In this document: one piece after another, positions 115-30,110 of the stretch | Layout: every line of letters starts with the position of its first letter | Position numbering within the stretch: position 1 is the first letter of the stretch | NCBI GenBank assembly: GCA_944372075.1 | Contig: CALVYJ010000002.1 | Location: 1-33,821 of the forward strand | Reading direction: 5' to 3' | Origin: an uncultured Clostridia bacterium | GTDB lineage: Bacteria; Bacillota; Clostridia; Christensenellales; Borkfalkiaceae | Length of the DNA: 33,821 nt | The notes under the pieces: model-generated | What the model saw: the letters and a program-made list of their open reading frames with translations, nothing else | What the model was told of the DNA's origin: nothing | Databases searched by the model: none | Translations under genes and position numbers: made by a program

Positions 115-189
115 GGCCCCGTGGTCAAGCGGTCAAGACATCGCCCTTTCACGGCGGTAACACGAGTTCGATTCTCGTCGGGGTCACCA
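115..189 (+). tRNA. tRNA-Glu (anticodon TTC)
   Basis: This is a full cloverleaf. Acceptor GGCCCCG pairs with CGGGGTC, the anticodon stem is TCGCC/GGCGG around loop CTTTCAC (anticodon TTC), the T arm is ACGAG/CTCGT around TTCGATT, and CCA is encoded at 187-189. The CCA is followed with no gap by a structured GC-rich repeat at 190-321. The last 16 bases of the tRNA recur at 325-340. The gene itself looks intact and functional. Confidence 0.97.
174..189 (+). repeat. Direct repeat, left copy (tRNA-Glu 3' end, att-like)
   Basis: The last 16 bases of tRNA-Glu (CTCGTCGGGGTCACCA) are repeated exactly at 325-340, on the far side of the structured repeat. A duplicated tRNA 3' end flanking an insertion is the usual footprint of site-specific integration. 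The identity is seen directly; the integration reading is inference. Confidence 0.8.
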
Positions 190-321
190 CGAAAAGAGAG
201 AGGTTTTTTAACCTCTCTCTTTTCGCGGTATCCTATGCAAGAAGCGAACGGGCGCGGCGAAGCCGCGGCTGTTCGCGCGAGCAAAGCGCCGCCCTGCCGA
301 CCCTTTTCGGGGCTTCGGCAG
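190..321 (+). repeat. Structured interspersed repeat, copy 1 (tRNA-abutting)
   Basis: This 132-bp GC-rich segment matches 29936-30069 with about nine substitutions and two single-base indels. It contains three successive hairpins. The first (190-225) has a 16-bp perfect stem built on AAAAGAGAGAGG. The second (244-276) has GCGAAC/GTTCGC outside CGCGGC-GAA-GCCGCG. The third (294-321) has CTGCCGA/TCGGCAG around CCC..GGG. Most differences between copies fall in the loop of hairpin 1. Apparent reading frames exist on both strands, but they lack ribosome sites, and an indel shifts the frame between copies. It is therefore more likely a structured RNA or small non-autonomous element than a gene. It lies inside the tRNA transcript, before the terminator at 350-392. 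Confidence 0.85.
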
Positions 322-324
322 ATG

Positions 325-340
325 CTCGTCGGGGTCACCA
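325..340 (+). repeat. Direct repeat, right copy (partial tRNA-Glu 3' end)
   Basis: This is an exact 16-base copy of the 3' end of tRNA-Glu (half of the T arm, acceptor strand, discriminator, CCA). It is not a tRNA gene, since nothing upstream can form the remaining arms. Together with 174-189 it brackets 135 bp that are almost entirely the structured repeat. Confidence 0.8.
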
Positions 341-349
341 AATGCGAAT

Positions 350-392
350 AAATCCGAACCTTGAGGAATATCTGAAGTTCGGATTATTTTTT
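350..392 (+). terminator. Rho-independent terminator of the tRNA operon
   Basis: Inverted repeat AATCCGAAC (351-359) and GTTCGGATT (377-385) is followed by a T-rich run at 387-392. It lies 10 bp after the duplicated tRNA end and would terminate the tRNA-Met/tRNA-Glu/repeat transcript. Confidence 0.8.
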
Positions 393-6298: not shown

Positions 6299-6330
6299 AT
6301 CTTGCGTAAGATTGAAGAGGAAGGAAATTT

Positions 6331-27714: not shown

Positions 27715-28716
27715 TCAGACATTCAAATTAAAACGGGCCGCCACGGGCTGATGATCGCTCCACCCGAGATCGCCTTTGAGCAGGGCAGGAGAAGAGAGCG
27801 ACGCTCCGGCATACAGGATATGGTCGAGTGCCGCAGTTGCCTCATGCGATTTTAAGGAACCGTCGTTTACGGTCGTAAAAAGATTGCCGCAGGCAGTTTG
27901 CACGTTTTCCGCGTTCAGATCTCCGCCTATGAAAAATGTGTCCTGCGGCCATTTTTCTTTGAGAGCCTTTGCCTGCAGGAAGAGTATTTCCTGACCCGCA
28001 AGGTTGAAATTTGTATGAGCGGCGTCGCTTCCGTTTTCCAACCAAGGCAAGTGCGTACAAAGAGCAATCACGGACTGTCCGGTCGTACGGTCTTGCAGCC
28101 TTCCCCAAACGGCCATGCGAGGTCTTCCTTCAAGGTTGCGAAAATCGTTGTCTGTCATCGCAGAAAAAACGGAATGCAAAATATCCGGCGTGTCGGAGAT
28201 GGCAAAAGCCCCCTGTTCGGTTAAACGAAACCGATTGTTTTTATAGAGAATATAATTACAGAATCGTGCAGAATATAAATCGGCGTTTCCGTAAGAAGGA
28301 TATTGCTGCGGCCCGTCTGCAAAATCGGAAACGCGAAGGCAGGCATATCCCATGTTTGCCGCAAGGGAAGGCAGCTGTTCGTCCTGAAAAGCGGCTGCTT
28401 CATTGAGAAAAACGATATCTGCTTTTTCTGCAAGGATAAAGGCCATCTGTTCTTTCAGCCGCACAGAGTCCGTCAGCGTCAGACCGTTTTGAACGGTGTC
28501 CGCCGAAGTTGCCGCGAGCAAATTGTAAGAAATTGTATATAACGTAGAGTTGTTTTCGGAATCTTTATCATCATCTTCCGGTTGAGCAGGGGATTCCTGC
28601 TCGGTGTTATCGTTGCTTCCGTTGCCTGTTCCCGCCATATGTGTGCCGCAAGAAACAAGCGTGACAAACATGCCCGCAATCAATAAAACAGCAAGCAAAA
28701 TTGCCAATTTTTTCAT
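27715..28716 (-). CDS. EEP-fold (endonuclease/exonuclease/phosphatase) lipoprotein, copy 2
   Basis: This 333-residue lipoprotein has lipobox LVSC (Cys23) followed by an acidic, Asn/Ser-rich linker to about residue 57 that copy 1 lacks. It has the same EEP motif series: Asn65 in SYNLLAA, Glu106 in FLNEA, Asp266/Asn268 in GGDLN, Asp298-His299 and Ser-Asp321-His322. It is paralogous throughout to 1845-2738, with shared phrases such as ADLYSARFCNYIL. Minus-strand ATG at 28716 follows GGGAGA; an upstream in-frame start at 28737 would place charged residues before the signal peptide. It has its own promoter without the CACGTG palindrome, so unlike copy 1 it may escape LacI control. Confidence 0.8.
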   Translation of the reverse strand: MKKLAILLAVLLIAGMFVTLVSCGTHMAGTGNGSNDNTEQESPAQPEDDDKDSENNSTLYTISYNLLAATSADTVQNGLTLTDSVRLKEQMAFILAEKADIVFLNEAAAFQDEQLPSLAANMGYACLRVSDFADGPQQYPSYGNADLYSARFCNYILYKNNRFRLTEQGAFAISDTPDILHSVFSAMTDNDFRNLEGRPRMAVWGRLQDRTTGQSVIALCTHLPWLENGSDAAHTNFNLAGQEILFLQAKALKEKWPQDTFFIGGDLNAENVQTACGNLFTTVNDGSLKSHEATAALDHILYAGASLSSPALLKGDLGWSDHQPVAARFNLNV

Positions 28717-28769
28717 AAAATTTCTCCCTGAAATCACTCCTTTTTTTCGTAATGTGGTCGGTTTATTTT

Positions 28770-29935: not shown

Positions 29936-30069
29936 CGAAAAGAGAGAGGCTAAAAAACCTCTCTCTTTTCGCGGTACCCCTATGCAAAAGACGAACGGGC
30001 GCGGCGAAGCCGCGGCTGTTCGCGCGAGCAAAGCGCCGCCCTGCCGACCCCTTTTCGGGGCTTCGGCAG
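29936..30069 (+). repeat. Structured interspersed repeat, copy 2
   Basis: This 134-bp copy of 190-321 has the same three hairpins. The first stem here extends outward to 29934 (CGCG..CGCG, 16 bp), the second uses CGAAC/GTTCG (29992-30022), and the third (30041-30069) has a full CCCC/GGGG inner stem. Roughly 60 central bases are identical to copy 1. No tRNA or tRNA fragment is adjacent and no flanking duplication was found. It follows the methyltransferase gene by 123 bp and is followed at once by a terminator. Confidence 0.85.
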
Positions 30070-30079
30070 GACGGCGGAC

Positions 30080-30110
30080 AAAAAGACGGCCGACGTCGGC
30101 CGTCTTTTTT
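30080..30110. terminator. Palindromic terminator
   Basis: AAAAAGACGGCCGA and its complement, with a T run on the right and an A run on the left, give a bidirectional terminator. It closes the methyltransferase transcript, with repeat copy 2 in its 3' untranslated region. Confidence 0.85.

Follow-up and report, generated by a model that had tools for sequence, protein, structure and literature searches.

The repeat found in two copies on this contig looks like an undescribed miniature mobile element. Its unit is approximately 115-150 bp in length, carries no genes and no conserved reading frame, and contains a core that, at tRNA loci, is lodged in a partial copy of the local tRNA, with GTTCG (53-57, on the T-loop side) before it and A58 after it; an intact tRNA lies alongside. 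On balance, the repeat is best regarded as a non-autonomous miniature insertion element that targets the tRNA T-loop, preserves a complete tRNA and builds up in tandem.

The two copies on the contig

The window analysed is an entire contig of 33,821 bases from a draft genome (1.88 Mb, 155 contigs). Two copies of the repeat were identified on it (Table 1), sharing 92% identity across 134 nt with a long exact central run, a similarity beyond chance (BLAST E 2.8e-48, search within the genome). Their stems were found to fold far better than shuffled sequences, with RNA folding z-scores (flanks included) of -9.6 for copy 2 and -6.7 for copy 1, while copy 2 folded as DNA gave a z of -6.65. An earlier note on this DNA had described two copies keeping all three hairpins, with a diverged loop in hairpin 1 and a hairpin 3 lengthened by an indel. 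Each hairpin was indeed found to fold in both copies, and both differences were recovered in the alignment of copy 1 with copy 2, the indel being of one base.

Copy 1 starts at the first base past the CCA of a tRNA-Glu(UUC) gene, and is directly followed by 19 bases of which 18 match the last 19 bases of that tRNA. Copy 2 is the same unit at a site without a tRNA and is itself devoid of tRNA sequence, with no obvious target duplication identified there. Since the identity between the copies begins at the base following CCA and stops at the final core base ahead of A58, these limits are taken to be the natural ends of the unit. A search for an empty site corresponding to copy 2 found homologues of the neighbouring gene in only two relatives, with a different neighbourhood in these, and an orthologue search for the gene after copy 1 gave only distant ones.

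Elsewhere on the contig, two diverged copies of a gene block were observed between positions 6302 and 26387 (6302-8428/19690-21735), the pair including a solute-binding protein gene (9338-11089/22664-24397). Genes with an endonuclease/exonuclease/phosphatase domain flank this duplicated block (1845-2738 and 27715-28737), and a 21-bp tandem repeat, in phase, is situated near the contig end (33571-33681).

Table 1. Features of the two repeat copies and their surroundings (positions in the window)
Feature	Positions	Strand	Basis
Intact tRNA-Glu(UUC); bases 58-76 at 171-189	115..189	+	ARAGORN and Rfam
Copy 1, complete unit between tRNA CCA and repeated tRNA tail	190..321	+	Alignment; empty site in G009
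Hairpin 1 of copy 1, terminator-like, carried by unit	190..225	+	Folding
Decayed inverted copy of tRNA 3' end, GGTATCC for GGTGACCCC	226..233	+	Sequence; more evident in G028 and other genomes
Hairpin 2 of copy 1, ending in T-loop motif GTTCG (271-275)	244..276	+	Folding
Core of copy 1 (hairpins A and B), at G57/A58 position of tRNA T-loop	276..321	+	R1 match 271-325, 60.7 bits; covariation
Direct repeat of tRNA-Glu bases 58-76, 18/19 identical to 171-189	322..340	+	Sequence
Terminator 3' of copy 1; G009 counterpart directly after tRNA	351..392	+	Sequence; G009 comparison
Copy 2, whole unit at tRNA-less site	29936..30069	+	Alignment to copy 1; R1 match
Hairpin 1 of copy 2	29936..29971	+	RNA and DNA folding
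Hairpin 2 of copy 2	29992..30022	+	DNA folding
Core of copy 2	30023..30069	+	R1 match 30018-30072, 56.1 bits
Terminator-like hairpin past copy 2	30080..30109	+	Folding

Distribution and structure of the core

A covariance model of the core (R1, 60 positions), which misses core variants, gave four matches in the source genome, namely the two in the window, one at C141:9648-9710 followed by a tRNA-Ala-like tail and one at C112:60-102 followed by a tRNA-Tyr-like tail. Across the family (gut bacteria, Borkfalkia-type Clostridia), the ~50-nt core was matched in 137 of the 301 genomes sampled, spread over 10 of 18 genera, with a maximum of 18 copies in one genome (R1, E up to 1e-3). No cores were found outside the family among sampled genomes of the order (248) and class (245) with E up to 1e-5, nor in the viral, phage and plasmid collections searched. 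The named records that carry it belong to metagenome-assembled genomes of Clostridia, among them Candidatus Borkfalkia faecavium.

The earlier note had named the existence of only these two copies in the genome as a refutation; this does not hold, as four copies were recovered here and many in relatives. Its expectation of many copies per genome holds for some relatives; in the source genome four were seen, in an assembly of the kind that breaks at arrays. The nearest core was situated within 400 bp of a contig end at 23 of 60 loci, where 3.3 were expected, indicating that arrays break assemblies and that copy numbers are thus underestimated. At the Rfam gathering threshold (cmscan), only tRNA was matched in the window and only tRNA and 6S at 13 loci, with a permissive cut-off adding only weak chance matches, in agreement with the earlier statement that the repeat could not be matched to a named family.

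Other structured cores were observed to fill the same T-loop place in genomes G015, G003 and G036, and similar arrays with other cores, missed by R1, were seen at loci L200, L192, L205 and L010 (e.g. GTTCG-TGCTCGAAGAGC-TTTGCGGC..GCCGCAA). Dispersed cores away from tRNAs were also observed in genomes G271 (L090-L094) and G251 (L098-L099), inside a longer repeat that starts with TGTCATTTCGA or TGTCATTCTG and ends with GAGAATCCC or AAGAATCTC. This longer repeat resembles a palindrome that is widespread in bacteria.

Both core hairpins were found to covary, so that the earlier claim that conservation tracks nucleic-acid structure is supported. Hairpin B gave 65 double-change cells, compared to 14.5 for shuffled data and 2-19 for slid controls, with one of its pairs seen as UA, AU, GC, CG and GU. 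For hairpin A, closure was obtained in 24 of 26 distinct sequences, compared to a mean of 4.5 and a maximum of 10 with shuffling; its stems vary in both length and sequence, and a GNA loop is present in 49 of 68 cases. An initial drawing of hairpin A as TTCGC-GCGA-GCGAA was discarded when a longer alignment favoured the GNA-loop hairpin, meaning that one helix of R1 was poorly chosen. G-U pairs were rare (12 of about 778 paired cells), and a GNA or GNNA loop closed by two or more G-C pairs makes a very stable DNA mini-hairpin (Hirao and colleagues, PMC4686876). As read from the aligned sequences, the scarcity of G-U pairs together with this loop type suggests selection on folded DNA, not RNA.

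Association with tRNA genes

R1 gave 105 matches in 77 sources, from which 97 strong copies were analysed. A tRNA gene was identified within 600 bp of 60 of these 97 cores, a proportion that describes strong matches as loci were picked by score, and in 59 of the 60 it was on the same strand. Nine tRNA species were found adjoining cores (Glu, Arg, Ala, Tyr, Ser, Leu, Gly, Val and Thr), while several strong cores without a tRNA within this distance possess tRNA tails or lie at contig ends. The 12 bases after the core match bases 58-69 of the local tRNA at 9.2 of 12 positions, compared to 5.9 of 12 for other tRNAs, and a match of at least 85% for this flank was obtained for 35% with the local tRNA and 0% with others.

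Two types of organization were distinguished. In the downstream type, represented by copy 1, an intact tRNA is followed by hairpin 1, a stretch of the tRNA 3' end in inverted orientation, hairpin 2 with GTTCG at its end, the core and tRNA bases 58-76. The upstream type consists of tRNA bases 1-57, the core, the start of base 58 onward, an inverted piece, a linker and finally the intact tRNA. Repetition within loci is sometimes seen in either type, and the copies beside tRNAs often form tandem arrays, with unit spacings of 127-347 bp. Both can be read as an insertion at G57|A58 with the tRNA restored. Hairpin 1 varies between tRNAs, the core being the constant part, and where hairpin 1 adjoins the tRNA it resembles a terminator that the unit brings with it. 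The role at 3' ends or terminators put forward in the earlier note was not upheld, the constant link being to tRNA genes, on either side of them, in the orientation described and at a fixed T-loop position; the repeat looks like a tRNA-linked insertion unit and not a 3'-end or transcript-end signal.

Three pairs of filled and empty sites were identified at tRNA-Glu(UUC), namely G000 with G009, G028 with G005 and G016, and G003 (where the filled site holds a core variant) with G039, G006 and G002. In G009, the tRNA is directly followed by the terminator and flank found beyond the unit in the source genome (172 of 235 bases identical, nearly all of the first 110). These comparisons use draft assemblies, in which any single case could be an artefact, and the three agree. 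For a unit at tRNA-Arg(CCG) of G211, no empty site was obtained as its flank matched nowhere else.

These observations also bear on whether the unit may instead be a functional tRNA-linked RNA or 3'-end processing signal, its inverted tail pairing with the tRNA 3' half and its core hairpins binding protein. Covarying hairpins, an orientation that follows the tRNA strand and the apparent location of upstream arrays within the transcription unit of the tRNA would all agree with such a role. It is nevertheless very unlikely given the patchy distribution among genomes of the family, the empty sites of related species, the occurrence of units both up- and downstream of tRNAs, the near absence of G-U pairs and a loop type typical of DNA mini-hairpins.

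Within one genus, cores beside different tRNAs of the same genome had a similarity of 0.810 compared to 0.765 with labels shuffled (p=0.013), and cores at the same tRNA in different genomes had one of 0.796, slightly above shuffling (p=0.022). These core similarities indicate probable spread within genomes and, as same-tRNA cores of different species are slightly more alike, some vertical inheritance as well.

The tyrT rtT repeats of E. coli (Rfam rtT RNA) form a tandem series downstream of a tRNA gene, and every repeat includes a copy of the 3' end of that tRNA. The units described here likewise form tandem series past a tRNA with copies of its 3' end, but the Rfam rtT model was unmatched (cmscan, window and 13 loci), the core is common to many tRNA species and arrays are also present upstream. 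An origin like that at tyrT, in which the palindromic T-arm undergoes local template switching and partial tandem duplication, with cores homogenised by gene conversion and no element as such, would fit a hairpin 1, inverted tail and flanks that are specific to each tRNA, the alternation of direct and inverted tRNA pieces, and the slightly greater likeness of same-tRNA cores between species. We consider this origin improbable, as one core with the same T-loop start and end is found at nine tRNA species with a shared flank of only ~5 bp, cores track the genome too, and copy 2, at an ectopic site, stops precisely at the borders of the unit.

Recombinases and the origin of the units

The 3' end of tRNA-Glu was found to be an integration hotspot in the genus (loci L161-L190), with at least three recurrent non-core tails after CCA that differ by species, and larger integrase islands use the same tail. 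Among the non-core tails observed were AACAAGTTAAAGGCG.., AATGCGAACAAATCC.. and AATTGGAACTATCC.., at least one being the end of a serine-recombinase gene facing the tRNA. At locus L007 (1618-3087, minus strand), the gene of a large serine recombinase (489 aa, with Resolvase, Recombinase and zinc-ribbon domains) was found to end within the tail of tRNA-Glu beside a unit. Its last codons are encoded by this tail and hairpin 1 (..TSKGSPRKKRGF), so that integration alters the C-terminus of the enzyme.

The units could accordingly be passive footprints, i.e. attachment junctions left by larger serine or tyrosine integrase islands reusing tRNA tails, with the core as a conserved junction. The L007 gene end, similar gene ends near L108 and L141, and the at least three other kinds of insert at the tRNA-Glu 3' end are in keeping with this, and such islands are a well-known source of tRNA fragments (PMC9897764). 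This explanation is unlikely, however, as no core was present at the far end of tRNA-Glu islands in the regions examined, the core was not found in the viral, phage and plasmid collections searched, and the units are compact, tandem and conserved in structure at nine tRNA species, unlike decaying junctions.

Two candidate mobilisers were rejected. Y1 transposase was rarer in genomes rich in the repeat, occurring in 7 of 25 that have many or several copies compared to 12 of 25 in which none were detected, and no integron integrase was identified above the TIGR02249 cut-off in 27 genomes. No gene was recurrent beside arrays, with integrases adjoining only a few units and tyrosine or serine recombinases near only some. 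Xer-like tyrosine recombinase genes were observed ~0.5-1.2 kb from a core in two genomes (L090:140-1039 and L154:2075-2959), possibly by chance.

Under the favoured interpretation, that of a non-autonomous insertion element, a recombinase acting in trans, possibly on a folded single strand, would insert the unit at G57|A58, much as integrative elements use tRNA attachment sites. An intact tRNA is retained at tRNA loci because a replacement is present, for its 3' part in the downstream type (as at copy 1) and for its 5' part in the upstream type; unequal exchange between the repeated tRNA tails would then expand arrays. The use of the same tRNA tail by integrase islands was counted in favour of this interpretation. 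Counted against it were the lack of a linked recombinase, the absence of the core from the viral, phage and plasmid collections searched, the partial vertical inheritance of cores and the want of an obvious target duplication at copy 2; no excision product or circular form was seen either. Given that neither hairpin 1 nor the inverted tail is constant from one tRNA to another, mobility may be confined to hairpin 2 and the core, in which case duplication of the tRNA requires a separate mechanism.

The GTTCG|A T-loop motif is near-universal in tRNAs. A more specific and rather unlikely proposal is that of a new kind of structure-guided, site-specific insertion, where a folded single-stranded DNA core (the GNA mini-hairpin and second hairpin) would be placed at GTTCG|A by a recombinase, giving integron-like gene-less arrays; nearly all tRNA genes could serve as sites, and the process itself would restore the tRNA.

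Comparison to known systems revealed both similarities and differences. Tandem accretion, insertion at a tRNA gene that stays intact and a direct repeat that starts inside this gene and runs to the CCA end are shared with tRNA-targeting integrative elements (integrase islands and satellites). Unlike these, the unit is under 160 bp without genes or its own integrase, its folded core lies inside T-loop sequence, and one core family is found at many tRNA species. As in integron cassette arrays (attC), the units of an array each terminate in a folded structure with a fixed point of joining and may be a folded single-strand substrate, but cassette genes are lacking, the T-loop takes the place of attI, no integron integrase exceeded the cut-off as described above, and the GTTCG of the unit does not fit the GTTRRRY box of attC. 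REP/RAYT and IS200/IS605-derived palindromes are likewise short hairpin repeats 3' of a fixed short motif; unlike these, the units have no Y1 transposase link, are tRNA-specific and duplicate parts of tRNAs. Neither Rfam nor the literature searched contained a comparably small unit that lacks genes, adjoins many tRNA species and has a conserved core at a single T-loop point.

Genes for tRNAs are classic docking sites of bacterial mobile DNA, with known guests usually kilobases long and each preferring one or few tRNAs. The existence of filled and empty sites in related species makes the idea of mobility testable. If true, this 130-bp gene-less unit, seen at nine tRNA species and one T-loop position, would rank with the smallest guests of this kind and might lead to a recombinase that places DNA at a motif of nearly every tRNA gene. 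The unit would also account for part of the tRNA pseudogenes and broken contigs in Borkfalkia-type genomes.
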